Part shown: in pieces, positions 1,689 through 31,302 of the stretch
Position numbering within the stretch: the stretch's first letter is position 1
Layout: each line of letters starts with the position of its first letter
Virus record (IMG/VR): IMGVR_UViG_3300037584_003778
Span: 1-35,014 of that record
From: a virus
Length of the DNA stretch: 35,014 bases
Reading direction: 5' to 3' (one strand)
Translations under genes and position numbers: made by a program
Notes under the pieces: model-generated
The model's database searches: none
The model's input: the letters and a program-made list of their open reading frames with translations, nothing else
What the model was told of the DNA's origin: nothing

Positions 1689-1816
1689 AGGATGAGTTTA
1701 CTGAAAGATTATTAGATGCAGCTATGGAGTTTATTATTGAGATCGATAAGGGTAAATTATTTAAAGAATTTTTAAAAGAAAGAAAGGATATAGACCTTGA
1801 AATCAAAGAAAATTAA
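1685..1816 (+). CDS. Hypothetical 43-residue protein
   Basis: The ATG overlaps the HNH stop codon (ATGA). The product is strongly helical and charged, with MKDEFTERLLDAAMEFIIEI and a C-terminus rich in Lys and Glu. It overlaps the TTG start of the methyltransferase by 20 bases. Coupled overlaps on both sides favour a real gene. There is no recognisable domain. Confidence 0.55.
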   Translation: MKDEFTERLLDAAMEFIIEIDKGKLFKEFLKERKDIDLEIKEN

Positions 1817-3098
1817 GGGACACTTAGATTTATTTAGTGGTATAGGTGGTTTTTCTTTAGCACTAGAAAGATCTGGAATAAAACCTAATTGGATTGGGTT
1901 TAGTGATATAGATAAATATGCAAATGAAACATTTCAAAGGAGATTTAAAGATGCAGAAAGACTCGATGACATTACCAATGTTCGATGCGAAGACTTGCCA
2001 AAAGACATTGACTTGCTTACTGGAGGATTCCCATGTCAAGCATTTAGCCAAGCAGGGAAGCGATTGGCTTTTGAAGACACCAGAGGGACACTCTTTTATG
2101 AAATTGTACGGATTCTCAAATATTACATTGAGATTGAAAAGCCCATCAAACATTTTGTACTCGAAAATGTTAAAGGCTTATATAGTGCAGGAAATTACAC
2201 AGCATTTAGTACAATCTATAGCTTTCTCTCCGACATTGGTTATTCCGTTGAGTGCCAACTGCTTAATAGTAAGTTCTTCGGAGTCCCACAAAACAGGGAG
2301 CGGATATATTTCGTTGGTAGATATTCTCCAAGAGGAAGTAGACCCAAAGTATTTCCTATCAGACAAAATGCAAGAGAGATTAGTAAGAATGGAGAAGTAA
2401 AGTTTACTAACTCTGATCCACGAGGTTTTGGTTGGAGAGATTTATCGCCTACTTTAGCAGCAAGAGATTACAAAGATCCAAAATGGGTTAAGTTATGTAG
2501 TGGAAAAATAGATAAAATAGCTGATTTACAGCCTGAACATCCAAGTAATAATAATGTTTATTCAAAAAATGGTATTAGCCCTACTATACCTGCAGTTGCT
2601 TATAAAAGAGGGCCGCTACCATGTGTAATAGATGAATCAGAACCTAAAATTAATAAACCCGATCAGGTAGGTAAGGTGTGTGATGGTGATGGTGGTAGAG
2701 TATTTTCTACTAATGGTACATCTTGCACTTTAAAAGCACAAGGTGGTGGATGGGGAGCAAAGACTGGTTTGTATGAAGTTGAAGATCCAAAACTTAAAAC
2801 TTATGCAATACTACCTGAATCTGAAAAACCTAAAGGTAATTATTTACCAAGAGAAAGAGTATTAGAATCAGAAAATGGTTTATCTAGAGCTTTATCTACA
2901 AACTCATCACAGCATCCATATTACAAAGCAAATGGAATAAGAAGATTAACACCAATAGAGTGTGAAAGATTACAAGGGTTTCCAGATAATTGGACTGATG
3001 GACAATCAGATACTCAAAGATATAAACAATGTGGTAATGCAATAACTGTAAATGTTGCAGAGGCTATATTTAGAAAGTTATATGAAATTCGCAGGTAA
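1797..3098 (+). CDS. DNA (cytosine-5-)-methyltransferase
   Basis: All core C5-methyltransferase motifs are visible in the 433 residues. The SAM-binding motif I is DLFSGIGGFS at 11-20. The catalytic PCQ has Cys80 in GGFPCQAFSQAGKR. ENV has Glu123, QNRERIYFVGR starts at 165, and GNAITVNVAEAI is near 413. The TTG start follows AAAGGA at 1782-1787, about nine bases away, and no better start exists. The target-recognition region between motifs VIII and IX is long and contains several look-alike units, for example LSPTLAARDY near 216 and ISPTIPAVAY near 260. This suggests duplicated recognition segments, as in multispecific phage enzymes. No cognate restriction enzyme adjoins it, so host-restriction evasion is the likely role. 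Confidence 0.95.
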   Translation: MKSKKIKGHLDLFSGIGGFSLALERSGIKPNWIGFSDIDKYANETFQRRFKDAERLDDITNVRCEDLPKDIDLLTGGFPCQAFSQAGKRLAFEDTRGTLFYEIVRILKYYIEIEKPIKHFVLENVKGLYSAGNYTAFSTIYSFLSDIGYSVECQLLNSKFFGVPQNRERIYFVGRYSPRGSRPKVFPIRQNAREISKNGEVKFTNSDPRGFGWRDLSPTLAARDYKDPKWVKLCSGKIDKIADLQPEHPSNNNVYSKNGISPTIPAVAYKRGPLPCVIDESEPKINKPDQVGKVCDGDGGRVFSTNGTSCTLKAQGGGWGAKTGLYEVEDPKLKTYAILPESEKPKGNYLPRERVLESENGLSRALSTNSSQHPYYKANGIRRLTPIECERLQGFPDNWTDGQSDTQRYKQCGNAITVNVAEAIFRKLYEIRR

Positions 3099-3432: not shown

Positions 3433-4744
3433 TAACTTTTAAAGTGTAAACATTAGAAGCAACCTGTTTAACACTTAAAGTATCACCTCTAAATGTACAT
3501 ATAGCAAATTGATCAGGGTTACTATTTGTATTATCTGGTTGAAACAAGAATGGCAAACTGCCACCTAATGTCATATTCCAAACAAAATTAAAACTATTAT
3601 CTGTAAACATAGGGTTTACTCTAGCCTCATCCCAAGTAGCATCATATTCATCCATTCTGTGATCACCATCTGAAGGTATAGTACTGTTTGTTGTAGTGTT
3701 TGTTCCATTGTCTGACGATGTAAAAGGTGCTACACTAGAATTTTCATAAGCCATCCACATATCATCATCTGTGATATAACTAAATGATAAATCCCAAGTT
3801 CTTAAACCTTTTCTACCAAAACCACTTTTAGCTCTATGTTTATAATATGTTTCACCAACCTCCTCTAAGTTTCCATCACCAAAAATATCATCTACACCAG
3901 AAGGTGTTGCAGAACTTAATTCAAAAGGTGGATATTGATGTATATTGTTTTTCCAATTTGGGCTATAGTCCTTAATTCCATGCATAGTCCATTCTTGTGG
4001 TCCATCATAATAAATATTAGAAATAGTTTTGCCACCTACTGTGTTCTGTTTTTTAATTCCATCAAATCTTCTTCTCATGGTTAATTTAAGATCTGGACTA
4101 TTTGGTGCATCCCAATATTTACCAACTACCATAGCACCTAAACCCATACCTGATACATCGTTATCAATAAAATGTCCACCTAAAGTATCAAGACCTATTT
4201 TGTTTGGAAAAGTAGAGTTTTCATTTCCTTGTGTTATACTTGTTGAAAAAGAGTTCCATATACCATAAGTTTCGTCAAAAGTAAATATGCTAGTTCCATT
4301 GTGGTTAGGTTTTAATCTAGTTGCAGTATAATATGCATCACCACTAACATCTCCTGAATTTAAAACATTAACATAGTTGTTAAATCTATTTGATTTATTA
4401 GCATTATCACTACCAGCATCATATCTTTTAGCATAAAAAAGAATATCTGAATCCATAGCTGGAGATTCTCCACATAGAACGCCATAGTTGTGATTAATTA
4501 AAGCACAAAAATTTATTCCATATACTGTTCTAGATTTTACTACTCTACCTATTGAATGTAGTGTATACCATTGGCTGTTCCATGAATCTGGATGAGGTAG
4601 TTGTCTTAACCATTGAGAGGATGGATTCATATATAATAATCGCTGACCACCTACATTATTATCAAAATATTTTGCATATCCCATAGCATGAATAAAGCTC
4701 GGTATGTCTACATAAAATCTTGGTGTTAAAACTTGTTTGCTCAT
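3413..4744 (-). CDS. Putative tail or receptor-binding structural protein
   Basis: The 443-residue product is rich in Asn, Ser, Thr, Gly and aromatic residues, with low lysine and no enzyme motif. This is the composition of a beta-rich virion surface protein. It opens MSKQVLTPRFYVDIPSFIHA and includes an SGFGRKGLRTWDLSFSYI segment. It then has a stretch rich in Asn/Thr and closes with a repeat-like STYTLKVTID-type strand. It is the last gene of the long virion operon and directly follows the tail-tip genes. A distal tail or adsorption role is therefore likely. The stop overlaps the convergent NinB-like gene. Confidence 0.6.
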   Translation of the reverse strand: MSKQVLTPRFYVDIPSFIHAMGYAKYFDNNVGGQRLLYMNPSSQWLRQLPHPDSWNSQWYTLHSIGRVVKSRTVYGINFCALINHNYGVLCGESPAMDSDILFYAKRYDAGSDNANKSNRFNNYVNVLNSGDVSGDAYYTATRLKPNHNGTSIFTFDETYGIWNSFSTSITQGNENSTFPNKIGLDTLGGHFIDNDVSGMGLGAMVVGKYWDAPNSPDLKLTMRRRFDGIKKQNTVGGKTISNIYYDGPQEWTMHGIKDYSPNWKNNIHQYPPFELSSATPSGVDDIFGDGNLEEVGETYYKHRAKSGFGRKGLRTWDLSFSYITDDDMWMAYENSSVAPFTSSDNGTNTTTNSTIPSDGDHRMDEYDATWDEARVNPMFTDNSFNFVWNMTLGGSLPFLFQPDNTNSNPDQFAICTFRGDTLSVKQVASNVYTLKVTIDEVA

Positions 4745-8966: not shown

Positions 8967-11374
8967 TAACTCATACCAAAGTCGCTACCTCTTCGGACAG
9001 CTTCTTTTATTGATTCTGCAAGTTCACCTTCTACATAATCTCTTGTAAGTATATTGCCTGAAACATTAACTACTACATTTCCTGTTGATCCTGTTTGATT
9101 CATTTGATTTAAAGTTTCTAAACCAATAGAATCTACAGCATTTCTATTCATTACAAATTCACCTTTTTCAGCCTCTATTAATGTACCACCTGCTGAATGT
9201 CTACGACCACCTACATAACCACCTTGTTCAAAAGAGCCATAAATAGAAGGTTCATCTGCACTACTTTGACTTGCTCCTAATTTATTAGCTTCTGCTATTA
9301 TAACTCCAGCAGCAACTAAACCTGCTGCTAAATTTGCTCCAGCTAAAACTTTAGTTGCAATTGGGTTAGTTTTCATCATTTCAGAATTTAAAGTTTTTAA
9401 ATATGCCCCATAAGCATCAATAACAGCCATAGTTGCTTCTATATAAGCCATTTCTTTTGCATTTGCACCAAATGCTTCCATAGCTTTTCCTGTGAAGTTT
9501 ACTACTGCTTTTGCAGCTTTTAGTTTTTGCAAATCAGCATCAAGTTCTATTTTACTTAATTTTTTTGTAACAGCTATTTTATCTTGTGACAATTTGATTG
9601 CTTTTTTATCTGACTTTAGTTTTTCTTGTTGTGATTCATTTTGTTTTCCTAAAACATTAGTTAAATCTTCTTCTATAGTAGCTAATTTTGCTCTTAATAG
9701 AGCTTCTTCATCTAATTCTGGTTTTGATGTTTTAAATGCATCTGCATTTTCTATTATTTTTTTGTTATTTTCATCAACAGTTCCACTTAAAAAATTCATA
9801 GCTTTTTCATATCCTAAAGTAGCAGATATAATTTCTGCTAAAGTGTTAATATGAGTTTTGTATCTTTTTATAATAGTTTCATTAACTTCTATGTTTTTTT
9901 CTAATTTTTCAATTTGTCCTTCTACAAAAGTGTTTCCAGGATCAGCTTTAAGTTCGTTTTTAAAATTCCTTAGTTTTATTTGATCTTGAGCTATTGTGTT
10001 TCCTACAACTAACATTTCTTCTACAATAACTTTACTACCTGCTATTAATTTATCTGATTCTAAATTTTGTATATCATCAAAAAATGCTATAATTCCAGTT
10101 TCTTGTTGATTTATAAACAAGTCTTGCCCCATTTTATCAAATGCTTCTACAAAAGTATTAAATTGGCTCATATCAGATTGACTGCCCAGAGCTGACATTC
10201 CTTTTGAAAGTGTCATAGATAATGCATTTAAACCACTATCAGTTTTTTCAGTTAAATCTTCAAATTTGTCAATGTTATCATCTAATGAATCTAATGCTTT
10301 ATCCATACTAATAGCATCAGTAATACCTGATAAAGCTTTTGCTGATACTCCTACTTCAGCTAAATCTTCTGCTAACAATTCTAAATCCGATAACATCATT
10401 TCATTGATAAAATCACTTATTTGTTCTGCAAAATTTCCTAATGCTGGAGCTATACCTGTACCTATTTCAAGACCAAGATTTCTCATTGTAGCACCAAATT
10501 TATTAAATTGGTCAGAAGCTTTTTTTGTTGTTGGAGGTAATTTTTTTACTTTATCTTCAGCAGCAGCTAAAGTAGCATTTAAAAATGCTTGTTTTTTTTC
10601 TGTGTCAGTAAGTTCCCCTGCTGTTTTATTTAATTCTTTTGCATAATCTCTATATGCATCATCTGCTTTAACTACAATACCAATGTTATCAAGCATCATA
10701 CGAGATTGACGACCAATACCAGTTATTAAAGATTCTACAGAACTTGCAGTATCTCTACCTAAAGCATCACCAAGTCTTTTAGCCATATCAAACATATGTG
10801 ACATTTCATTTGTATTTTTAGTCACACCAAGAATCATAGCATTGTTTGCTTGTTGTAATAAATCAAAATCTGAAACTGTACCTCTAGTTGCTGATCTTAA
10901 TTTAGCAATACCAGCAGCAGAGCTCTCAGAAGCACCAGTTAAACTATCAAATGCTGTTTCCATATTTTTTAGTTTAGTGGCTTCTTTAGCCATTTTAATA
11001 ATTTGTTGGACACCAAGCCCCATCATAAAATTAAAAAGCAATAATTTTGATCTCATAGTAGCAAAAGAACCTGCTAACAATCTATTATTTCTTAATAAAC
11101 CACCAGCAACTTTTTTGTTTTTTTGCATTGCTATTCGAAGTTTTTCCATAGCTAATCTACTGCCTTTAGCAGCACCACGATATGTATGGACAGAAACACC
11201 TAAATCCTTCCAAGTTTTACCTTGTGCCATAATTTTAGCAGTCATACTTTTTAGGGCATTAGAAGTTTTACTGGAGCTATTACTAACTCCAGATTGTGCA
11301 GCTTTTATTTGGTTCATAGCATCTATTATTTCGCCATGACCACTCGCTTTAAACTCTATAATTATTTCAGACAT
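8966..11374 (-). CDS. Tail tape measure protein
   Basis: The 802-residue product is mostly alpha-helical and rich in Lys, Ala and Glu. A hydrophobic patch lies around residues 108-125 (LLLFNFMMGLGVQQIIKMA). A second lies near 675-700 (LAAGLVAAGVIIAEA), and long coiled-coil stretches fall between them. A glycine-containing segment, GGYVGGRRHSAGGTLIEAEKGEF, near residue 720 is typical of the C-terminal part of many siphophage tape measures. The protein sets tail length and takes part in genome delivery. Its position directly after the two chaperone ORFs and before the tail-tip gene fits exactly. At 802 residues it predicts a tail of roughly 120 nm using the common rule of about 0.15 nm per residue. 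Confidence 0.85.
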   Translation of the reverse strand: MSEIIIEFKASGHGEIIDAMNQIKAAQSGVSNSSSKTSNALKSMTAKIMAQGKTWKDLGVSVHTYRGAAKGSRLAMEKLRIAMQKNKKVAGGLLRNNRLLAGSFATMRSKLLLFNFMMGLGVQQIIKMAKEATKLKNMETAFDSLTGASESSAAGIAKLRSATRGTVSDFDLLQQANNAMILGVTKNTNEMSHMFDMAKRLGDALGRDTASSVESLITGIGRQSRMMLDNIGIVVKADDAYRDYAKELNKTAGELTDTEKKQAFLNATLAAAEDKVKKLPPTTKKASDQFNKFGATMRNLGLEIGTGIAPALGNFAEQISDFINEMMLSDLELLAEDLAEVGVSAKALSGITDAISMDKALDSLDDNIDKFEDLTEKTDSGLNALSMTLSKGMSALGSQSDMSQFNTFVEAFDKMGQDLFINQQETGIIAFFDDIQNLESDKLIAGSKVIVEEMLVVGNTIAQDQIKLRNFKNELKADPGNTFVEGQIEKLEKNIEVNETIIKRYKTHINTLAEIISATLGYEKAMNFLSGTVDENNKKIIENADAFKTSKPELDEEALLRAKLATIEEDLTNVLGKQNESQQEKLKSDKKAIKLSQDKIAVTKKLSKIELDADLQKLKAAKAVVNFTGKAMEAFGANAKEMAYIEATMAVIDAYGAYLKTLNSEMMKTNPIATKVLAGANLAAGLVAAGVIIAEANKLGASQSSADEPSIYGSFEQGGYVGGRRHSAGGTLIEAEKGEFVMNRNAVDSIGLETLNQMNQTGSTGNVVVNVSGNILTRDYVEGELAESIKEAVRRGSDFGMS

Positions 11375-11796
11375 TACTTATTTTCCTTATTGGCTTTTTC
11401 AGCAATCTTCTTTGCTTTCTTTGCCATTGCATTTTTAATAATAAAAAAATATTGCAACCACCTTACAGGCTGATCACCATATGATCCTGGATATGCAGGA
11501 ACTCCTGTTTCTGTGCAATAAATGTATTGATTTATTAAATTTGTGTAACTGTTTTCAGTAACATTATTAACACAAGCAAAAAAAGGTAATTGGGCTACAA
11601 CATTTTGGTTTACATCGTAACCCTTTTTTTCTGTTTCATTTAAATGTTTAGTTTCATCTATTATAAGATCAATTACATTCCAAACATCTTTACTTGAACG
11701 AAATTCCCTTAATTCAAAACCATTTTTTGTTTTTACAGGTAGTTTTGCTTTATAAGGAAACTCACAATAAGAACAGCCTCCACAGCCATCCGACAA
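11374..11796 (-). CDS. Tail assembly chaperone, T-like part (probably expressed by -1 frameshift)
   Basis: The frame is 140 residues long from a TTG codon with no visible Shine-Dalgarno site, beginning MSDGCGGCSYCEF with a CxxCxxC cluster. It lies between the G-like ORF and the tape measure, exactly where lambda T lies. Its frame is -1 relative to the G-like ORF and stays open upstream through the end of that ORF. I therefore infer that it is made as a G-T fusion and not from its own start. The C-terminus is Lys/Ala-rich and helical. The cysteines at the junction could bind metal, a feature I have not seen described for lambda GT. Confidence 0.7.
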   Translation of the reverse strand: MSDGCGGCSYCEFPYKAKLPVKTKNGFELREFRSSKDVWNVIDLIIDETKHLNETEKKGYDVNQNVVAQLPFFACVNNVTENSYTNLINQYIYCTETGVPAYPGSYGDQPVRWLQYFFIIKNAMAKKAKKIAEKANKENK

Positions 11797-11807
11797 TATA
11801 GCCAGTT

Positions 11808-12089
11808 CTACTTGGAGGCTTTCTCTTCCCCCACTAAAAGATATTCCTGCACTTTTAAAAATATTTCAGTTCTATCTTCTAATGAAAGTGTTTTTAGAAA
11901 CTTATCAGATGTATCACCATCAACACCAATACGAATCCATTTAGTAACTGTAGTATTCATCATTTTCATACCTTTAGGGTTACCTTTTTTATCATACTGA
12001 TAGTCTACTGAATCAAAAAGTTCATCTCTTTCATCTATAGATACATCTTTTAACTTAATCTTCTTTCCAGATTTAAGTTGTATTTCCAT
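11808..12089 (-). CDS. Tail assembly chaperone, G-like
   Basis: This is a 93-residue charged protein (MEIQLKSGKKIKLKDVSIDE) that follows the tail-tube gene and precedes the tape measure, the conserved place of lambda G and its analogues. The family coats the tape measure during tail assembly and is absent from the finished virion. The ATG follows AGGAATAAACA. The end, EYLLVGEEKASK, overlaps an open -1 frame, so a fraction of ribosomes probably continues into the downstream chaperone domain. Sequence similarity in this family is low, so the call is positional. Confidence 0.7.
   Translation of the reverse strand: MEIQLKSGKKIKLKDVSIDERDELFDSVDYQYDKKGNPKGMKMMNTTVTKWIRIGVDGDTSDKFLKTLSLEDRTEIFLKVQEYLLVGEEKASK
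11826..11832 (-). other. Candidate -1 programmed frameshift site in tail chaperone genes
   Basis: On the minus strand the zero-frame codons are GTG GGG GAA, giving GGGGGAA near the end of the G-like ORF. A slip back by one base re-pairs GGG exactly and continues as AGA GAA AGC, an open frame running into the T-like ORF. The heptamer is not a perfect X-XXY-YYZ, since the second codon re-pairs poorly. The exact slip point could lie a few codons earlier. Lambda uses GGGAAAG at the matching place. Confidence 0.4.
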
Positions 12090-12092
12090 TGT

Positions 12093-12242
12093 TTATTCCT
12101 TTATTTTTTTAACTTTTTTAGCTTCTTTTTTCAAAGATTTACCATTTTTGTCTACTTCAATCCAATCAGAAGGAACATCTTTAACTTTACTATCTTCTAC
12201 TTCTTGAATTTTATTAAACCTATCACATTTAAAGTATTTCAT
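12093..12242 (-). CDS. Small lysine-rich protein of the tail operon
   Basis: The 49-residue product starts MKYFKCDRFNKIQEVED and ends in a run of Lys/Ile pairs. The ATG at 12242 has a strong GGAGAATAT site. A longer reading to 12278 would need a start inside the tail-tube gene and is rejected. It lies between the tail-tube and chaperone genes and is cotranscribed with them. There is no recognised domain. It may be a small head- or tail-completion helper. Confidence 0.55.
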   Translation of the reverse strand: MKYFKCDRFNKIQEVEDSKVKDVPSDWIEVDKNGKSLKKEAKKVKKIKE

Positions 12243-12250
12243 ATATTCTC

Positions 12251-13396
12251 CTATGCTGTTGCACCTGTTGCTAACCACATTACTTTATTATATGTTACAC
12301 TTGCATCATCAACTACTTTAGCTTCAAAATCCATAGTAGCTACATCACCACTTCCAACAGAAGCACTAATTAATTTAGCTTTTGGTATAATAAAACCAAA
12401 TAATTGACTGGCATGATTTTCTATATCTATAGATGCACTAAATGGTTGACCTTCGCCATTTGTTAAAGCTCTGTTATTTACAGATAGCTGTATATAGGAT
12501 GTACCAGCAGAATCACGATGAGCTTCTAACATTTTATCAGTAGTTGTATCATATTTCATAGAACCAGCTATTGTAATGTTTAGCTCAGGAACTGATCTGG
12601 CAAACACCTGTGGTAAACCACTTGTGTCTTGACCAATAAATTGTGTTGGTGCATCAAATGTTAAACTTAAATTGTTAAACAATGGCTCAATGCTAGTTTC
12701 ATCAGTAGAGCCATCATATTCCATAATATTTAAGTCTTTAACACCTTGATCTACTAAAAATACATTTTTTTGACCTAAAGCAGTTGAAAGCTCTTTTGCA
12801 CTACTAAAACTATCAGAACCTTTAGTAGGTGTGTGCATACTTTGAAATGTGGCAGAATAATTATATCTTCCACTTGCAGTTCCCATATCAGCACTAACTT
12901 GGAAATTTGTTACAACACAACCTGGTATATGATAAGAATCTCCTGCTGTTGGAGCAACAAAAGAAACTGTTAATGTTTTATTCCAAACTGTTGCACCTGT
13001 TGAATCTCCACTTTTAAAGTTACCAGGCGAATATCCTGAAGCTATTTCAAAAAGATTTCCTGTTTCTGTACCTGCTTGAGCTAATACATTTTCTATAAAA
13101 ATAGGAAAATCTTGTAAAGTTAACCTACCTGATAATGTAAACTCTGTTACTACTGCTTTTGAGCTTGAAAACATAGCACCAAATTCAGCAACCCTACCAG
13201 TACCTGTTCTCATCTCGAACTCTTGGTTTGGGCTAAATGTTGGTAGGGTAATGCCTTCAATATCTAGTCTATACATATGCTCTCCATTTGTTGAATCATT
13301 TACTGTTCCAACACCTGGATCGTAATCTGCATCACCATCTGCACCTACATAGACTTTAAATTCTCTACCTGAAAAGGTAGTGCTATTTATTGCCAT
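12251..13396 (-). CDS. Major tail tube protein
   Basis: This 381-residue beta-rich protein (MAINSTTFSGREFKVYVGAD at its start) sits just upstream of the chaperone pair and tape measure. It has a very strong AAGGAGGT ribosome site, as expected for an abundant virion protein. Features such as FEMRTGTGRVAEFG, ATFQSMHTPT and a C-terminal ASVGSGDVATMDFEAKV resemble tail-tube proteins of siphophages. It is longer than the roughly 200-residue core of that family, so it probably carries an added surface domain in the central part. It should polymerise into hexameric rings around the tape measure. Confidence 0.75.
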   Translation of the reverse strand: MAINSTTFSGREFKVYVGADGDADYDPGVGTVNDSTNGEHMYRLDIEGITLPTFSPNQEFEMRTGTGRVAEFGAMFSSSKAVVTEFTLSGRLTLQDFPIFIENVLAQAGTETGNLFEIASGYSPGNFKSGDSTGATVWNKTLTVSFVAPTAGDSYHIPGCVVTNFQVSADMGTASGRYNYSATFQSMHTPTKGSDSFSSAKELSTALGQKNVFLVDQGVKDLNIMEYDGSTDETSIEPLFNNLSLTFDAPTQFIGQDTSGLPQVFARSVPELNITIAGSMKYDTTTDKMLEAHRDSAGTSYIQLSVNNRALTNGEGQPFSASIDIENHASQLFGFIIPKAKLISASVGSGDVATMDFEAKVVDDASVTYNKVMWLATGATA

Positions 13397-13450
13397 TTAT
13401 ACCTCCTTGACATAATAATTTATGCCATTAATTTAGTTATTATTTGTTAA

Positions 13451-13885
13451 TTATCCAATATTTCCTATATGCTCACATTGCCAATCTAAATCAACCGAAT
13501 AAATTCCATCTTCCACATCTGTATTTAATTTTGTGTTTTGGATTCTACAATTATATGCTTTACTACTATTAGATAAAGTTATTATTATATTATCATGAAC
13601 CAACGATTCAATTCTAGAAGTGTATCTCAATATATGATCAACAGCTTTAGTATTTAACATTTTTCCATCAAAATAATATATTAATTTTATACTATACCTT
13701 CTTTCTTCTGAATTAGTTGTATAACTAATCAAATTAGAAGATTCAGGTAAAATTCTTAAATATTGATTGCCATGCATTTTTTCATAGCCCACACAAGTAG
13801 GTAATGCACCTTTAAATTCTGATTCTATTAAACTTTCTAGTGCATCTAAAATATTTTTAAATGTATTTTCAGGTGTTATTGCCAT
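13451..13885 (-). CDS. Head-tail joining / tail terminator-like protein
   Basis: The 144-residue product lies between the connector-like gene and the tail tube, the usual site of the tail terminator or neck protein. It starts MAITPENTFKNILDALESLI and has alternating helices and strands (YLRILPESSNLISYTTN, DVEDGIYSVDLDWQCEHIG). The closing strand with a VDLDWQ-like motif is common in small minor tail proteins of the gpU/tail-terminator type. The start overlaps the upstream stop by one base. The assignment is mainly positional. Confidence 0.5.
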   Translation of the reverse strand: MAITPENTFKNILDALESLIESEFKGALPTCVGYEKMHGNQYLRILPESSNLISYTTNSEERRYSIKLIYYFDGKMLNTKAVDHILRYTSRIESLVHDNIIITLSNSSKAYNCRIQNTKLNTDVEDGIYSVDLDWQCEHIGNIG

Positions 13886-14871
13886 TAATATAACCTACTA
13901 TTTTTTCTAATTCTTGTCATTTTAACTGCTTTACCATTAGAATTGTCTACATCTTCATATTTACCAAATACTTCTATTTCCCATTCATCTGCTGTTCCAG
14001 AAACATTTGCAGTAGAGCCTGAATCAGGATTCATATCATCACCAGCAAATCTTATTTGTAAGCCACCTGCTAATTGCTGATAATCGCCATTTATAACTTC
14101 ATCTGTAACTACCTGATTGTTTTTAAGTTTATCAGAATCTTTTATATAAACACTATATGTTGCAGTACCTATTCTTCCACCTGTAGTTATGATAACTTTA
14201 ATTAAATCATAAGTTCCTGACCACTCACCTCTTGTGTCTACAGGTCTAATAGAACCATTAGTATAAGATACATCTCTTATAACACCTTGCGATGAATCTC
14301 TTGTAACTTGAAAACTTAAAGCAGCTTTACCTTCATTTATATTTTGAATGTTCATCATCGCTTCTTCCATTAAAGCATTAGCAAGTTCACTATTTGGATC
14401 ATGTGCTTTTATCATAAAGTTAGCAGCTATTAAAGCAGTTGTTCTTATAATCAGGTAATCAAAGTTACCACTTTTATCTTTAAATGCTTCTCTTGGCATA
14501 TTAGGGTCAAGCATACTATCTAAATATCTACTTGCATCAGTTCTATATTGAGTAACCATAGCAGTAAATTCTTCTCCTGCCTCCATTAATTTATCAGCAG
14601 GATTACTTGCAGAATAATAATAAAGTACATCTTCAGCAGAATTATAAAACCATTCGCCTTCAACATTTAAGTCAGTATGTGCTGATTGAGCAGGTCCTAA
14701 ATCTTCGCCATCTGCAAATAATTGAGTTACTAATCCACTATTATGTGCTGCATATTTATTAGTTGCAACCTCTGTCCAACCATAAATAGATTTTTTATTA
14801 TCAAAACTATCAAGTTGTGGAAATACTCTCTTTAATTCTTTATGTGTACAATATATTGCTGCTGTTGCCAT
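13885..14871 (-). CDS. Head-tail connector / adaptor-like protein
   Basis: The 328 residues open MATAAIYCTHKELKRVFPQL. This Y-C-T-x-x-E-L-x-x-x-FP opening occurs in DUF1320-like head-tail adaptor proteins of many phages. A helical domain with YLDSMLDPNMPREAF and LIAANFMIKAHDP follows at about residues 115-160. A beta domain then runs to the end. It precedes the tail-terminator-like gene, in line with a role at the portal-tail interface. It is longer than simple adaptors, so the C-terminal half may be an added beta domain. The ATG follows GGAGAATAG. Confidence 0.55.
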   Translation of the reverse strand: MATAAIYCTHKELKRVFPQLDSFDNKKSIYGWTEVATNKYAAHNSGLVTQLFADGEDLGPAQSAHTDLNVEGEWFYNSAEDVLYYYSASNPADKLMEAGEEFTAMVTQYRTDASRYLDSMLDPNMPREAFKDKSGNFDYLIIRTTALIAANFMIKAHDPNSELANALMEEAMMNIQNINEGKAALSFQVTRDSSQGVIRDVSYTNGSIRPVDTRGEWSGTYDLIKVIITTGGRIGTATYSVYIKDSDKLKNNQVVTDEVINGDYQQLAGGLQIRFAGDDMNPDSGSTANVSGTADEWEIEVFGKYEDVDNSNGKAVKMTRIRKNSRLY

Positions 14872-14879
14872 CTATTCTC

Positions 14880-15137
14880 CTACCATTTCTTACAAGACCA
14901 ATATCTTGCTTTTGTTTTAGGTCCTGGTGTATCACATTTATGTCTTGCTCTAAACGATTTACGTCTAGCAGGACTTGATTTTTTAATTCTCATATTAGGA
15001 TCACCAAATGAAACTCTCTTTACTTTGCTTCCATCTTTAACAAAGACTTCAAATTTTTTTCTACCATAACCAGGTCTACCTTTGGTAATTCTTCTTGGCT
15101 TATTTAAACGAACTGTTCTACCTCTATATTTAGCCAT
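14880..15137 (-). CDS. Small basic conserved phage protein
   Basis: The 85 residues are highly basic and contain FEVFVKDGSKVKRVSFGDP. They continue RKSFRARHKCDTPGPKTKAR and end YWSCKKW. The SFGDPNM-x-IKKSSPARRKSFRARHxCD segment ending in WSCK is a pattern I know as a recurring block in proteins of marine and environmental phages. Its function is unknown, though it is sometimes fused to or near head proteins. The positive charge would suit packing against DNA in the capsid. It lies between two even smaller basic ORFs and the connector gene in the virion operon. Confidence 0.7.
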   Translation of the reverse strand: MAKYRGRTVRLNKPRRITKGRPGYGRKKFEVFVKDGSKVKRVSFGDPNMRIKKSSPARRKSFRARHKCDTPGPKTKARYWSCKKW

Positions 15138-15138
15138 T

Positions 15139-15216
15139 TCACTTCTTTCTTTTCATCTTACCTTTTTTAGATGGTCTACCTCTTTTTTTACCATATGTAC
15201 CTTTACCTTTTGGCAT
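15139..15216 (-). CDS. 25-residue basic peptide with AT-hook core
   Basis: The ATG follows GGAGATAAT and the product is MPKGKGTYGKKRGRPSKK followed by five to seven further basic residues. KKRGRPSKK contains the Arg-Gly-Arg-Pro core that lets AT-hook peptides lie in the minor groove of A/T DNA, which would suit this AT-rich genome. It is too short for most gene finders. The TYGKKR block also appears in the neighbouring 40-residue ORF, so the two may be related. It is plausible as a DNA-associated virion peptide. Confidence 0.65.
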   Translation of the reverse strand: MPKGKGTYGKKRGRPSKKGKMKRKK

Positions 15217-15230
15217 ATTATCTCCTTTTT

Positions 15231-15353
15231 TTATTTTTTTATTTTTTTAATTTTACCATTAGATGTTCTAGCAAATTTATGAGTTTTAGTTTCTCTAATA
15301 AATGTACCATAGTATCTTTTTTTACCATATGTCCAACTTATTCTTTTTGGCAT
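15231..15353 (-). CDS. 40-residue basic protein
   Basis: The product starts MPKRISWTYGKKRYYGTFIR and ends TSNGKIKKIKK. It begins on a TAATG overlap with the stop of the upstream tail gene, so translation is coupled. WTYGKKR resembles the TYGKKR of the next peptide in the operon, which points to a shared origin. Most residues are basic or aromatic and no known domain is visible. Confidence 0.6.
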   Translation of the reverse strand: MPKRISWTYGKKRYYGTFIRETKTHKFARTSNGKIKKIKK

Positions 15354-16966
15354 TATACAAATCCTAATATTTCTACTTCAGATTCTAATTTTTGATTACA
15401 TGATCTGGCAGATATGTTTGTTAATACATTTTGCTGATCAGCTGTTTCGTTAATACCACCACTATGAGCAGAATTATAATTAGCAGATGCTTTAAACTCT
15501 GCATTTACAGGTCCAATAAAATCTATAGCACCTGTTTGGTAATTGATAGTACCTGTTGCAGCACCCATAATATTACCCTTACCATCATCATAAGCAAATA
15601 CACTTGTGTTAGTGTTTGCTGTATAATTTATTTTATCTCTTAATGTGTCATCAGGTAGTTTAGCTGCTACTGCTGTTTTAACTACTGCTGGGAATCTTGC
15701 TATTTGATTACTCCCATCAAACAATTCATCTGTATTGGCAGTACCACTTGTTCCTGCTGTTAATGCTATAGCACTTGCTCTTGTTTTGTTCTGTGAAGTA
15801 AATCTTATATCTCCATTTACTATTGAACAAGTAACACCTTTTTCAAATAAGTTTCCTTCTGTATAAAACTGAGTATCAAGTATTGTTTGTATTTTACTTA
15901 CAACACCATTTGTGCCTCCAAATTTAGTATTTGAAGCATCTGTTGTAAATGCTACCTCATAAGCACTTCCACCATCTACTGCTATTTTAAAATAATAAGT
16001 AGTAGAAGCAGTTAGTCCAGTTTCTGTATTTGATGTTATTCCAGAAAGTCCAACTTCTTGATAACCAGACTCATAAAACTTCATAGCAAAAGAACCTTTA
16101 ACTATACCTGTAGGATAAGATGTTGATCTTCCTACACCTAATAAATTATGACATTTAAACTTACCACTTGAATCAGTTTGGGTATATGTATACTTATTAT
16201 AATTATGATAAGCATTAAAAAATGGAAAACTTACTGCTGCATCATCTGCATGAGTAGCTGCTGTTGAGCCATGAACACCTCTTTTTACGTTTACAAAATT
16301 AGTTGCTAGTGCAGCTTTAGAGCCAACAGATTCAATTTCCATTATCTCATTATCTATACGAATTAAATCTCCTTCAACAAACAAATTTGCAGTACAATCT
16401 GCAGAACTAGTATAAGGCTCTAAAAATACTCTTGTTGTTGTTGAGTCTGAAGCGATTGTAGCACTTGTAGCAGTATCAACATCTGCTGTGCTATCACTTA
16501 ATAGTGAACTACTAAGATCATAACCTGTACTATCTAAAGCATTAGAATTAGCAGCACTTGCATCTTCTGCATAACCTGCCCACCATTGACTAGGCAAAAC
16601 TAAATATTCATGAGCTGCTAGTATAGTAGAACATTGTCTTATAGTTGTTGCTGATCCAGGACCTAAGTCAACACTATTTGTTTGGTCTACAGTATCACTT
16701 TTCCACTCTCTGTATTTAAATTGAATTTCAGCAGGTATATCACTACAATTTTTAACAACAATAAGTTTTGCACCTTTCATCTTTTGACCAACTGCTGATC
16801 CTAAACCAGAAATACTACTTCCTACTGTAATTAAAGTTGTAAATCCATCAGTATTATCTACAACTTGTTTTGTTCTTACTATTTCTGAATATTGATCAGT
16901 CATAACCATTTCATAGGAATCGCCTAATCCTGTTGTAATTTGTAAATTTGTATCTAATTTTGCCAT
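15353..16966 (-). CDS. Virion structural protein, probable fibre or head decoration
   Basis: The 537 residues are dominated by Ser, Thr, Ala and Gly and predicted beta strands. It starts MAKLDTNLQITTGLGDSYEM. The RIDNEIMEIESVGSKAALATNFVNVKRGVHGSTAATH segment resembles phage surface modules that hold an RIDxE(x)M motif followed by VxRG. Further blocks such as ASTTYYFKIAVDGGSAYEVA look like Ig-like or fibronectin-like strands. It sits with two fibre-like genes in the late operon. It could equally be a head-decoration protein or a fibre. No enzyme motif is seen. Confidence 0.6.
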   Translation of the reverse strand: MAKLDTNLQITTGLGDSYEMVMTDQYSEIVRTKQVVDNTDGFTTLITVGSSISGLGSAVGQKMKGAKLIVVKNCSDIPAEIQFKYREWKSDTVDQTNSVDLGPGSATTIRQCSTILAAHEYLVLPSQWWAGYAEDASAANSNALDSTGYDLSSSLLSDSTADVDTATSATIASDSTTTRVFLEPYTSSADCTANLFVEGDLIRIDNEIMEIESVGSKAALATNFVNVKRGVHGSTAATHADDAAVSFPFFNAYHNYNKYTYTQTDSSGKFKCHNLLGVGRSTSYPTGIVKGSFAMKFYESGYQEVGLSGITSNTETGLTASTTYYFKIAVDGGSAYEVAFTTDASNTKFGGTNGVVSKIQTILDTQFYTEGNLFEKGVTCSIVNGDIRFTSQNKTRASAIALTAGTSGTANTDELFDGSNQIARFPAVVKTAVAAKLPDDTLRDKINYTANTNTSVFAYDDGKGNIMGAATGTINYQTGAIDFIGPVNAEFKASANYNSAHSGGINETADQQNVLTNISARSCNQKLESEVEILGFV

Positions 16967-28036: not shown

Positions 28037-28339
28037 ATGATTAGAGTAAAATTTAATTTTGATGAAGACCCATTAGAATTTAACTTTGATGGCTTTTCTA
28101 AGGGTGAAACTTGGAATGGCTTTTCAATTGTTTATGTTAATTCTGAAACATTCACTAAAATAAAAGACATTTTATTTAATATTGATGATATGAATAAATC
28201 AGACATATTAGATGAATTTAATTCTTTTGTTAATGGTGCATCAATTCATAATGGAGAAGTTGTTTATAGTTTGCTTGGTTTCTGTGTTCATATTGTAGCA
28301 AAACAAGTTGACCATAAATTATGGGAACAAGTTCAGTAA
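28037..28339 (+). CDS. Hypothetical 100-residue early protein
   Basis: The product begins MIRVKFNFDEDPLEFNFDGF and alternates strand-like and helical parts (NSETFTKIKDILFNIDDMNK). It ends WEQVQ, and its TAA lies inside the 5' strand of helix I of the hammerhead ribozyme. GGGAGGTTTTTAAA precedes the ATG. There is no family I know. It is cotranscribed with the membrane pair. Confidence 0.65.
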   Translation: MIRVKFNFDEDPLEFNFDGFSKGETWNGFSIVYVNSETFTKIKDILFNIDDMNKSDILDEFNSFVNGASIHNGEVVYSLLGFCVHIVAKQVDHKLWEQVQ

Positions 28340-28406
28340 CTCTGATGATGGATTTAAAATCCGAAACACTACAAAAAATTGGGGGCTTTTTGTGGTGTCA
28401 GTTACT
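28335..28406 (+). ncRNA. Hammerhead ribozyme, type I
   Basis: The core is CTGATGA (28342-28348) and GAA (28363-28365), with a cleavable C at 28399 after a U. Helix I is AGTAACT (28335-28341) with AGTTACT (28400-28406), 7 bp. Helix II is GGATT/AATCC with loop TAA (28350-28362). Helix III is a 12-bp stem, 28366-28377 with 28387-28398, with one G-U and the loop ATTGGGGGC. An extra U at 28349 sits between the core and helix II. Cutting after C28399 would release an RNA starting AGTTACT, just 13 bases before the AAGGGG ribosome site of the GP88 gene. It overlaps the stop of the upstream gene. Confidence 0.88.
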
Positions 28407-28424
28407 AAAAAATAAGGGGATAAA

Positions 28425-29219
28425 ATGAAAAATGTAAAATTGCTAAGTGATGGCTCAGTAAATCACAAACTAAAAAAGAATAAAAAAGAGGGATATTTAA
28501 CATATAGCTTAAATTTTGCTCACTCTGATTTAAGTGGTTTCAATGTTTGCCCAATGGCTCAAAGGTTGTCAAGATCTGGTGATGGGCAGCAGAACGAAAA
28601 ATTAAGTTCTTGTTCTTCTGTGTGTGTTGGTGCTAATGGTTATGCTTCAATTCATTCAAATGTTTTAGAATCTCGCATAAACAAAACTTTAGCCTTCAAA
28701 TTAGATACTAAAAATTTCATGTTAAAATTAGTTTCTGAAGTTGAAAACGCAATAAAACTGGCTAAAAAGAAAAATTTAAAACCCACTTTCCGATTAAATG
28801 CATATTCTGATATACTTTGGGAGGGTGTAAAGACCAACGATCAAGATTTAAAAATGAACATTTTTGAGATGTTTCCAAGTGTTACCTGGTACGATTACAC
28901 AAAAATTCATAATAGAAAAGTCCCAAAAAACTACCAATTGACTTTTTCACATTATGGAGATTTTGATAAAACTTCTGATGCTTTAGAAAATGGCTTTAAT
29001 TCTGCTATAGTTTTTGAAGAGTTACCAAGTAAAATAAAAATCAATAATAAAATGTACTGGGTAGTTGATGGAGATAAAACCGACCTCCGAATTGATGAAA
29101 AAATAAATGGGGCTTCGGTTGTGGTTGGTTTAAAGTTCAAAGGTTCAAAAGCTAAATTAAATGATGCTTTGCTTGATGGTTTTTGCATAAGCAAAGAAAA
29201 TCAGAGTTTAATATTTTAG
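28425..29219 (+). CDS. GP88-family protein, function unknown
   Basis: The 264 residues match what I know of the GP88 family (named after mycobacteriophage gene product 88, widespread in phages and plasmids). There is an N-terminal LNFAHSDLSGFNVCPMAQRL. A CSSVCVGANGYA cysteine pair and a VLESRINKTLAF helix follow. Then come RLNAYSDILWE and a TWYDYTKIHNRKVPKNYQLT core with a conserved Tyr-Asp-Tyr-Thr-Lys. Three or four Cys could form a metal or iron-sulfur site near residues 42-70. The family resembles a TIM-barrel-like or radical-enzyme-like fold, but the reaction is not established. A strong terminator follows. The start has AAGGGGATAAA, just behind the hammerhead. Confidence 0.75.
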   Translation: MKNVKLLSDGSVNHKLKKNKKEGYLTYSLNFAHSDLSGFNVCPMAQRLSRSGDGQQNEKLSSCSSVCVGANGYASIHSNVLESRINKTLAFKLDTKNFMLKLVSEVENAIKLAKKKNLKPTFRLNAYSDILWEGVKTNDQDLKMNIFEMFPSVTWYDYTKIHNRKVPKNYQLTFSHYGDFDKTSDALENGFNSAIVFEELPSKIKINNKMYWVVDGDKTDLRIDEKINGASVVVGLKFKGSKAKLNDALLDGFCISKENQSLIF

Positions 29220-29239
29220 TAACTAACCCAAAAATTGGG

Positions 29240-29271
29240 GGGTGTCTAAGTATGGATGCCCTTCTTTTTTT
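29240..29271 (+). terminator. Rho-independent terminator after GP88
   Basis: GGGTGTC (29240-29246) pairs with GATGCCC (29255-29261), with two G-U pairs and an 8-base loop. A T-tract TTCTTTTTTT follows. It lies 20 bases past the GP88 stop and should end most early transcripts there. The next gene therefore probably has its own promoter. Confidence 0.75.
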
Positions 29272-29364
29272 GTGTGTTTGGCTATAATATGAAGCAAAAA
29301 TTTTTTAGATCCGCAGCAAAATTTAGAAAAATGACTAATTATAATAATAAAGGGAGTTATAAAA
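29272..29364 (+). promoter_or_regulatory. Probable promoter region of the second early operon
   Basis: A perfect TATAAT lies at 29283-29288, about 75 bases before the next ATG; the -35 is not clear. The leader ends in AATAATAAAGGGAGTTATAAAA. The same ATAATAATAAAGGGAGT string precedes the gene at 29592. The promoter call rests on the -10 box and on position after the terminator. Confidence 0.45.
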
Positions 29365-29571
29365 ATGAGTAAAGAAAATAAAATAAAAAATAAATTGTTA
29401 GAGGTTATAACTGAAGATGGGACAGAGTGGAAAGTTATAGTTGAAGAAATAAAAAAAATAGCCATTATAAAAAATTGGTTGTTAGTTAGGGGTATAATAC
29501 AAGAATTAAAAAATGAAAATATTATTGATAGAGCTGATAATGTTTACCAAGAAATTTACATAAAATTATAA
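29365..29571 (+). CDS. Small winged-helix-like protein
   Basis: The 68 residues start MSKENKIKNKLLEVITEDGT. A LLVRGIIQELKNENIIDR stretch, shaped like the recognition helix and wing of a small winged-helix domain, follows, then a DNVYQEIYIKL strand. GGGAGTTATAAAA stands before the ATG. It may bind DNA as an early regulator. The identification is by shape only. Confidence 0.55.
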   Translation: MSKENKIKNKLLEVITEDGTEWKVIVEEIKKIAIIKNWLLVRGIIQELKNENIIDRADNVYQEIYIKL

Positions 29572-29591
29572 TAATAAAGGGAGTAATAATA

Positions 29592-30035
29592 ATGAATAAT
29601 AAAACTATAAAAGAAGTTCTTAAAAATGATAGTATAAAAATTACTAATCGTTCTGTGCTTCTTATAAATGAAGATAAAAAAAGTAACAAGATTAATAACC
29701 AAGTATATTTAGATATTATAAATACTGGCTTAGATGATTTGGAAAATACTTATGGAGATTATGATGCTCTTCATGGTATAGATGAAGATGTAGAATTTAA
29801 TAAATCTGTAGTAAGAGAAATAATTGATATTAGAAGACAATTAAGATTTGGTTCTATTGATTTAATAAAACCATTCACATGTAATGTTATAAATATGGCT
29901 ATTGATTATTATACTGAAATAACTGAAGATTTCAGTGAAGAGCATTGTGTAAGGTTACAATATTTGATTCAATATGTATGGGGAATTAAAATTCATAAAT
30001 TTTTAATAAATAAAATGGAGGTGTTAAATGGATAA
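29592..30035 (+). CDS. Hypothetical 147-residue early protein
   Basis: The product starts MNNKTIKEVLKNDSIKITNR, has an acidic middle (LENTYGDYDALHGIDEDVEF), and ends with a hydrophobic/helical part. The leader repeats the ATAATAATAAAGGGAGT string of the previous gene. Its stop overlaps the next start by eight bases. I see no enzyme motif or known domain. Coupling to the acidic protein suggests a shared task. Confidence 0.6.
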   Translation: MNNKTIKEVLKNDSIKITNRSVLLINEDKKSNKINNQVYLDIINTGLDDLENTYGDYDALHGIDEDVEFNKSVVREIIDIRRQLRFGSIDLIKPFTCNVINMAIDYYTEITEDFSEEHCVRLQYLIQYVWGIKIHKFLINKMEVLNG

Positions 30036-30768
30036 GATGATTAAAAAAATAACCACTAAAATTTCTGATCTGGAATTTTATGATGGTATATTAACAGAAA
30101 TAAATAATAGTTGTGATGTTGATGAAGCAGAGGGTCAATATTATAATGGGCTTCGTGTTAGTGAGGACATTATATTAATCAAAGAATGCTATAGTGATAA
30201 AATGACTTATGTTACTGAATATTTTTTATACAACATAAAAAATGACACATTAAGAAAAGTGCTTGATGAAGTTGATAATGAATTAAGAGATTTTTTTCAA
30301 GATGAAGATTTACTTGATTATGCAAACTGCTTTTTTATATGTGGAGTCGAACCTACTAAAGGTAAATATGCACAATTTATTTATGGTGATTATGATGATG
30401 CTATTGTTGATCTGGGAATTTGCTTAGAAAAAAATGGAATAGAAAAAATAATATGCGACTTAAATCAATGTTCTGAATTGATTGATTCTGACATATACAA
30501 TGTTGACCACGATTATTTAAATGAAGACATCAGTATAAGTTGTGACAAAGCAGTTAAAATTATAACCGCAGCCAAATCACTTTTAAAATCTATTGATGAA
30601 AATCGTTGGGACTTATGGGAAAATGATATTGAAAATAAACATGAATGCATTTTATGGTATGATGATGACTATCAAATAGATGAAAAAGATGATGGAAACT
30701 GGGAAACTGAACATAAAGATGGAATCGTAGATTCTTACAATAAACTTAAAAAACTAATAGAGGAGTAA
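30028..30768 (+). CDS. Hypothetical strongly acidic protein
   Basis: The 246 residues are loaded with Asp and Glu throughout (for example RDFFQDEDLLDYANCFF and WYDDDYQIDEKDDGNWETEH). They carry few clusters of basic residues, so the predicted charge is strongly negative. Phages often use DNA-mimic proteins with this composition to block host nucleases or repressors, but no family motif identifies it. The start overlaps the previous gene. Its stop ends two bases before the type II hammerhead. Confidence 0.6.
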   Translation: MDKMIKKITTKISDLEFYDGILTEINNSCDVDEAEGQYYNGLRVSEDIILIKECYSDKMTYVTEYFLYNIKNDTLRKVLDEVDNELRDFFQDEDLLDYANCFFICGVEPTKGKYAQFIYGDYDDAIVDLGICLEKNGIEKIICDLNQCSELIDSDIYNVDHDYLNEDISISCDKAVKIITAAKSLLKSIDENRWDLWENDIENKHECILWYDDDYQIDEKDDGNWETEHKDGIVDSYNKLKKLIEE

Positions 30769-30769
30769 A

Positions 30770-30836
30770 TTGTCGAAAGAGTCCAAATAAATGGACTCTC
30801 TAATCAAGTTGGCTACTTGGTTACTGATGATGACAA
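30770..30836 (+). ncRNA. Hammerhead ribozyme, type II (ends in helix II)
   Basis: The core GAA (30775-30777) comes first and CTGATGA (30824-30830) last, so the open ends are in helix II: TTGTC (30770-30774) with GACAA (30832-30836). Helix III is a perfect 8 bp, AGAGTCCA (30778-30785) with TGGACTCT (30792-30799). C30800 is the cleavage base after U. Helix I is 9 bp with one U-G, TAATCAAGT with ACTTGGTTA around the loop TGGCT. An extra U (30831) again follows the core. Cutting after 30800 would part the acidic gene from the next gene, whose AAGGAG site is at 30843. All helices and core bases differ from the first ribozyme except the core. Confidence 0.88.
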
Positions 30837-30855
30837 GCCAAATAAGGAGAATAAA

Positions 30856-31302
30856 ATGAAAAATGATAAAATAAAAAAAGGTTTACAAAAATTTTCTGGA
30901 AACATTGTTCAAGAAATTGAAGCAAAGTATTTAGAAAAGAAAAGAAACCAAAAATGCTTATCTGATTATTGTGATGGTGATTTGTCAGATGATATGTATA
31001 CTGATGGAATTGAATGGGAGCAGTATACTTGTGATAAGTGTGGTGCTTTGCATGAAGTTCCAATTTCTCGTAATCATTCAATTACTCGTAATGATGATGG
31101 TTTTGATGAGGTTGATATTGATAGGCATTGGGATGATCTGGAAATGATTGATGAAGATTATGCAGATGCAGAAGATGAAGAATGTTGTAATACTTGTGGT
31201 GAAACTGCTACAATAGAATTAAATGGATGGTCACCATCATTATGGGTTTGTGATGATGCTGAATGTGCAAAACAAATATTAATAAATGAGATGGGAGAAT
31301 AA
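30856..31302 (+). CDS. Zinc-ribbon protein, 148 residues
   Basis: The ATG at 30856 has AAGGAGAATAAA; a longer reading from 30817 would start inside the ribozyme and is rejected. Two cysteine pairs are seen in each half: C-x3-YC then TCDKCG near residues 34-62, and ECCNTCGE then WVCDDAEC near 108-137. This gives two zinc ribbons separated by an acidic linker (DEVDIDRHWDDLEMIDEDY). Such proteins bind nucleic acid or act as small transcription factors. The strong acid content recalls the gene before it. Confidence 0.65.
   Translation: MKNDKIKKGLQKFSGNIVQEIEAKYLEKKRNQKCLSDYCDGDLSDDMYTDGIEWEQYTCDKCGALHEVPISRNHSITRNDDGFDEVDIDRHWDDLEMIDEDYADAEDEECCNTCGETATIELNGWSPSLWVCDDAECAKQILINEMGE

Follow-up and report, generated by a model that had tools for sequence, protein, structure and literature searches.

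The closest described counterparts of the element analyzed here are the type II hammerhead ribozymes (Perreault et al. 2011, PMC3088659; Rfam family RF02276), which share with it the order GAAA, helix III, cleavage site, helix I and CUGANGA, with helix II open, and a pseudoknot between loop I and the 3' tail. They occur between the genes of phages and prophages, often several per genome. The pseudoknot speeds a type II hammerhead, similar tandem hammerhead arrays cleave (in one case in E. coli), and processing into gene-length messages has been proposed for hammerheads (Perreault et al. 2011, PMC3088659). Publications continue to describe their role in phages as unknown (PMC10085705, PMC6155905). 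The hammerhead of haloviruses HF1/HF2 likewise precedes a start codon within a virus operon, by 13 nt compared with 19 nt here, and the 5' end of a transcript was mapped to within three nucleotides of its cut; it differs in its archaeal host and in being a high-salt core variant (Perreault et al. 2011, PMC3088659).

The stretch of DNA under study (denoted the window) is a 35-kb virus record of 35,014 nucleotides, which encodes the terminase large subunit, major head protein and tape measure of a tailed phage. A DNA methyltransferase gene (phrog_116) is located at its left end (1797-3098, + strand). Judged by its terminase, the phage belongs to an uncultured lineage, because this protein is at most about 32% identical to those of annotated phages among the matches listed and mostly 83-100% identical to those of many viral contigs. 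The closest annotated phages gave no DNA match to the window, and a search for prophage relatives in bacterial genomes found none. The putative ribozyme sits in the right-hand + strand gene cluster (Table 1).

Table 1. Positions of the type II hammerhead element, its parts and its surroundings in the window.
Feature	Position	Strand	Remarks
Type I hammerhead	28335-28406	+	immediately precedes the GP88-like gene (PF17338) in the same gene cluster
Upstream gene, 246 aa	30028-30768	+	1 nt separates its stop codon from the ribozyme
Type II hammerhead	30770-30836	+	complete core and three helices; predicted cut after C30800
Helix II, 5' strand TTGTC	30770-30774	+	pairs with 30832-30836
Core G12 A13 A14 A15.1 (GAAA)	30775-30778	+	
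Helix III hairpin, 8 bp including A15.1-U16.1	30778-30799 (30778-30785/30792-30799)	+	loop AATAAA, 30786-30791
H17 = C	30800	+	cut predicted between 30800 and 30801 from the core register
Helix I hairpin, 9 bp, one G-U	30801-30823 (30801-30809/30815-30823)	+	loop TGGCT, 30810-30814
Core C3-A9, CTGATGA	30824-30830	+	
Extra unpaired U (T30831)	30831	+	between A9 and helix II
Helix II, 3' strand GACAA	30832-30836	+	
3' tail GCCAA	30837-30841	+	GCCA (30837-30840) pairs with loop I TGGC (30810-30813): pseudoknot
Ribosome-binding site AAGGAG of downstream gene	30844-30849	+	read by eye
Downstream gene, 148 aa, Cys-rich	30856-31302	+	ATG 19 nt after the ribozyme

The element displays the architecture of a type II hammerhead, in which helices I and III are closed by loops and helix II is open. 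Rereading of the sequence and folding confirmed the permuted core and the positions and pairing of the 8-bp helix III, 9-bp helix I and 5-bp helix II that a preliminary description had reported; it had overlooked the extra base T30831 and the pseudoknot between loop I and the tail, the tail being situated just beyond its coordinates. The A15.1-U16.1 pair is formed by A30778 and T30799, the cleavage triplet is CTC, and the pseudoknot comprises four base pairs (TGGC/GCCA) with a fifth possible. Folded in isolation, the stretch adopts the hammerhead structure as its minimum-energy state (-22.3 kcal/mol, z -3.7), and none of 200 shuffled sequences equalled it. In longer transcripts helix II had a pairing probability of 0.26-0.65, in a calculation that leaves the pseudoknot out of account. 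Compared with the type II hammerheads of RF02276, the window copy is distinguished by A+T-rich helices, the extra U after A9, the 5-bp helix II, the CTC triplet and its failure to be detected by Rfam. The kind of element is already known, and the window copy is a new one.

A register error was rejected as the source of the extra U, because shifting the core to the TGATGA that lies three bases further on would abolish C3 and helix II. The extra U is shared by the majority of the type II hammerheads that we collected from phages and by the type I copy of the window. Among hammerheads in the same contigs that were not selected by pattern, 20 carried an additional U and one an A, and 15 had no insertion; the extra U is therefore a common variant and not a defect of the window copy. 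The CChMVd (+) viroid hammerhead reportedly has an extra A between A9 and helix II. In this viroid, cleavage is reported to be impaired by an extra core nucleotide (De la Pena and Flores 2001, as cited in PMC3705267), and by analogy the extra U could slow catalysis. The viroid case differs in that the additional nucleotide is an A instead of a U and that the ribozyme serves the replication of a circular RNA.

A chance origin of the structure at 30770-30836 was excluded by simulation. When the same scanner was applied to 843.6 Mb of sequence simulated with an order-2 Markov model at the composition of the window, it yielded, at the loosest setting, 772 hammerhead-like matches of any type, the biggest helix sum being 20 as opposed to 22 at the site. 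No match in the simulated 843.6 Mb combined a helix III of at least 8 bp, a helix I of at least 9 bp and a helix II of at least 5 bp.

The covariance score, whose failure the preliminary description had named as a refutation, gave opposite answers with two models. The Rfam 15 search of the window returned no hammerhead at gathering or relaxed thresholds, nor for RF02276 at an E value of 10. The RF02276 (Hammerhead_II) cut-off of 37 bits is a detection limit and not a structural definition; other phage hammerheads with the same extra U do reach it, such as that of L056 (10115-10179) with 48.5 bits. In the consensus structure line of RF02276 the pairing of helix II seems to be shifted by one column, leaving C11.1 unpaired, and this offset may add to the poor sensitivity of the model. 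By contrast, a covariance model denoted R1, built from 63 hammerheads of other phages with the present phage excluded, scored the window site at 63.7 bits (E 1.7e-15), and its second-best hit in the window reached 9.7 bits. Genuine relatives obtained about 29-76 bits with R1, whereas decoys sharing the core letters but lacking the helices obtained 15-27 bits. The failure of Rfam is not decisive; a model built from type II hammerheads of other phages recognizes the site. Rfam also misses those type I copies of the lineage that were scanned. Since the curated models overlook such ribozymes in this A+T-rich phage lineage, their number is probably underestimated.

Relatives were collected from viral contigs with the core-letter pattern GTCGAAA(20-50)CTGATGATGAC, which gave at least 139 distinct matches and supplied the 63 hammerheads used for R1; as the pattern was derived from the window site, agreement in the core letters is partly circular, whereas that in helices I and III and in the pseudoknot is not. 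Both helices I and III were present in 110 of the 139 distinct pattern matches listed, compared with 0.16% of shuffles, and at least 82 contig stretches contained one or more complete copies among the matches listed. In alignment A1, whose rows were preselected for helices and pseudoknot, 91.7% of cells are paired and changes on both sides occur in all four helices. The covariation in this preselected alignment was 0.67, as compared with 0.18 after shuffling and 0.14 or less when slid, and the pseudoknot pairs covary too; these values were measured in the copies of other phages, the window's own lineage having too few. Without preselection for the pseudoknot, loop I and the tail could form four or more base pairs in 98 of 160 hammerheads, whereas tail-swapped controls gave 41 (maximum 57). 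A longer pattern, in which the ends TTGTCGAAA...CTGATGATGACAAGCCA and the GCCA tail were fixed, detected another five sites, distributed over four unrelated contigs. Each of these had TGGC in loop I, which the pattern did not ask for, and different helices I and III.

Instead of a ribozyme, the sequence could hold two adjacent hairpins that act as terminator or stability elements, the core letters having arisen by chance. Hairpins III and I are each stable on their own, the former with a pairing probability of 0.995 or more. However, chance is excluded, the core is invariant across the covarying relatives, and there was no terminator-like call at the junction, which makes this explanation close to negligible. 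The structure, the covariation in other phages and the independent covariance model together support the assignment of 30770-30836 as a type II hammerhead, with cleavage predicted from its core.

The ribozyme occupies the 87-nt gap between two co-directional genes, neither of which had a family match above the cut-off. Among type II hammerheads in the collected contigs (n = 134), the median distance to the upstream stop codon was 2 nt, the window copy having 1 nt. A ribosome site followed by a start codon was found within 40 nt downstream on the same strand in 108 of the 134 (19 nt in the window), compared with 6 of 134 on the opposite strand. In four contigs (L056, L110, L050 and L027) genes alternate with type II hammerheads, as judged from gene calls made by a simple gene caller, so that some starts may be off. 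The stop/ribozyme/ribosome-site geometry of most of the 134 copies points to a specific role for phage hammerheads. Two other readings of the junction were tried and rejected. An open frame starting at TTG 30817 would make the 3' half of the element coding; this was dismissed because the same frame contains a stop, read by eye, in the close relative L001, which keeps the ribozyme, and because the AAGGAG-ATG start fits better. A promoter-like match over 30830-30857 was set aside, because the number of such matches in the A+T-rich region exceeds that in shuffled sequence by only about two standard deviations.

We put at about 0.78 the probability that the element is a genuine type II hammerhead that cuts the polycistronic phage transcript in cis between C30800 and U30801 and so gives rise to separate messages. 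This reading draws on the structure, on the covariation seen in other phages, on the retention of the element in one relative and on the recurrent arrangement of stop codon, ribozyme and ribosome site across phages. The upstream message would end 32 nt past its stop codon with the helix III hairpin and one nucleotide bearing a 2',3'-cyclic phosphate. The first nucleotide of the downstream message would bear a 5'-OH and already belong to the helix I hairpin, and this message would carry a 55-nt leader that includes the ribosome site. From the architecture, the type II order puts a closed hairpin on both new ends, whereas type I or III does so on one only; because only type II leaves both ends closed, the likely effect would be the conversion of one transcript into separately stable, separately translated messages. 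Cleavage would in this way affect stability and translation, protect both messages and presumably benefit the phage.

The position of the window copy adds weight to a general role in message punctuation. Phage hammerheads may, as a tentative extension that we hold less likely than the reading of the single site, serve as a general system for punctuating transcripts, occupying the space that separates a stop codon from the ribosome site of the following gene, sometimes gene after gene. Type II would be favoured for its protective hairpins on both new ends, and each gene would obtain its own message without terminators or RNases.

The same crowding of signals could alternatively place cleavage under the control of translation, in that helix II or the tail would be covered by a ribosome that terminates at 30766-30768 or initiates at 30856. 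The stop codon lies 1 nt before helix II, the tail adjoins the ribosome site, such crowding is general among the collected copies, and helix II is weak in the transcript context. We regard such a regulated or ribosome-coupled switch as unlikely, since the loops are minimal and show no aptamer-like addition, and the crowding may only reflect the compactness of phage genomes.

Conservation of the junction copy was followed in the relatives of the window phage. L001, whose upstream protein is 95% identical, has the ribozyme as well; only two changes separate it from the window copy over the 71 nt that run from helix II to the GCCA tail, and both fall in loop III. L001 retains GCCA, and the leader directly after it is replaced; the leader between ribozyme and start (L001, 787-898) is about 90 nt longer than that of the window. 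In L002, which is 83% identical in the upstream protein, the ribozyme is absent, the upstream stop being followed by AAAA and then ATG, and the downstream gene is without the first 33 codons of the 148-aa protein of the window. R1 detected no type II copy beyond that of L001 in the remaining loci of the terminase lineage, many of which are fragments that may not reach the junction. Because only two genomes (the window and L001) share this copy and L002 does without it, the junction ribozyme would appear to be either dispensable or recently gained; three genomes do not separate gain from loss.

These differences could also be explained by a mobile or hitch-hiking cassette, in which a new leader and an N-terminal extension of 33 aa were acquired along with the ribozyme, the latter cutting RNA without benefit to the phage. 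The joint absence of ribozyme and extension from the stop-AAAA-ATG junction of L002 fits such an origin, as does the variable number of ribozymes among relatives. Against it, L002 has a type I hammerhead (4383-4451) at the same place before the GP88-like gene as the window, with all helices different, a site that neutral drift would destroy; moreover, the tight stop/ribozyme/ribosome-site geometry recurs in unrelated phages. We therefore consider a cassette of no use to the phage improbable.

Among the relatives, the type I site preceding the GP88-like gene is more widely conserved than the type II copy. In the window and in L002 the stop codon of the upstream gene lies inside helix I of this type I copy. 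In L002 the helix III hairpin of the type I element (4414-4443) encloses a string resembling a ribosome site plus ATG, AAGGAGGTTTAAAGATG, which is followed by no long frame. Type I copies at a similar distance from the terminase were found in L143, L152, L164 and L180, and L178, of the same terminase lineage, carries seven in 5.3 kb (10048-15363), nearly one per gene. The type I hammerheads of the lineage (in the window, L002, L143, L152, L164, L178 and L180) have the same core and the same intergenic placing as the type II copy; they differ from it in that helix I is open, the downstream piece is without a hairpin and the helices are unrelated. The type I copy of the window, mentioned in the preliminary description as the first ribozyme, is real, and its helices are unrelated in sequence to those of the type II copy.

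Two same-strand hammerheads lie 2401 nt apart in the window, and the RNA between them (28400-30800, 2401 nt) might, as in a retrozyme-like unit bounded by paired hammerheads, be excised and its ends ligated to yield a circular or spliced RNA. The predicted ends, 5'-OH and 2',3'-cyclic phosphate, would be ligatable, and retrozymes provide known examples of circular RNAs that contain hammerheads (PMC6155905). For phage hammerheads, however, a search for such circular or spliced products found none (Perreault et al. 2011, PMC3088659), and the relatives carry one, two or seven hammerheads without consistent pairs. Excision is accordingly a very improbable explanation of the two sites.

The preliminary description had called the presence of two permuted forms in one phage striking and type II the rarer class. 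The first point is weakened by the co-occurrence of type I and type II in six other contigs (L004, L021, L032, L067, L083 and L099), of which some weaker matches may be due to chance, and by multi-type clusters already described. The second is not supported, since in bacteria type II hammerheads match types I and III in frequency (PMC3088659) and viral contigs hold at least 139 pattern matches. Type II and III-like matches a few hundred bases apart were seen in L041, L043 and L093, again with some weaker matches that may be chance. A second type II subclass, with a small helix I loop (GTTATGC-like) and mostly without the loop-tail pseudoknot, was observed in L007, L023, L039, L047, L062, L105, L113 and L121.
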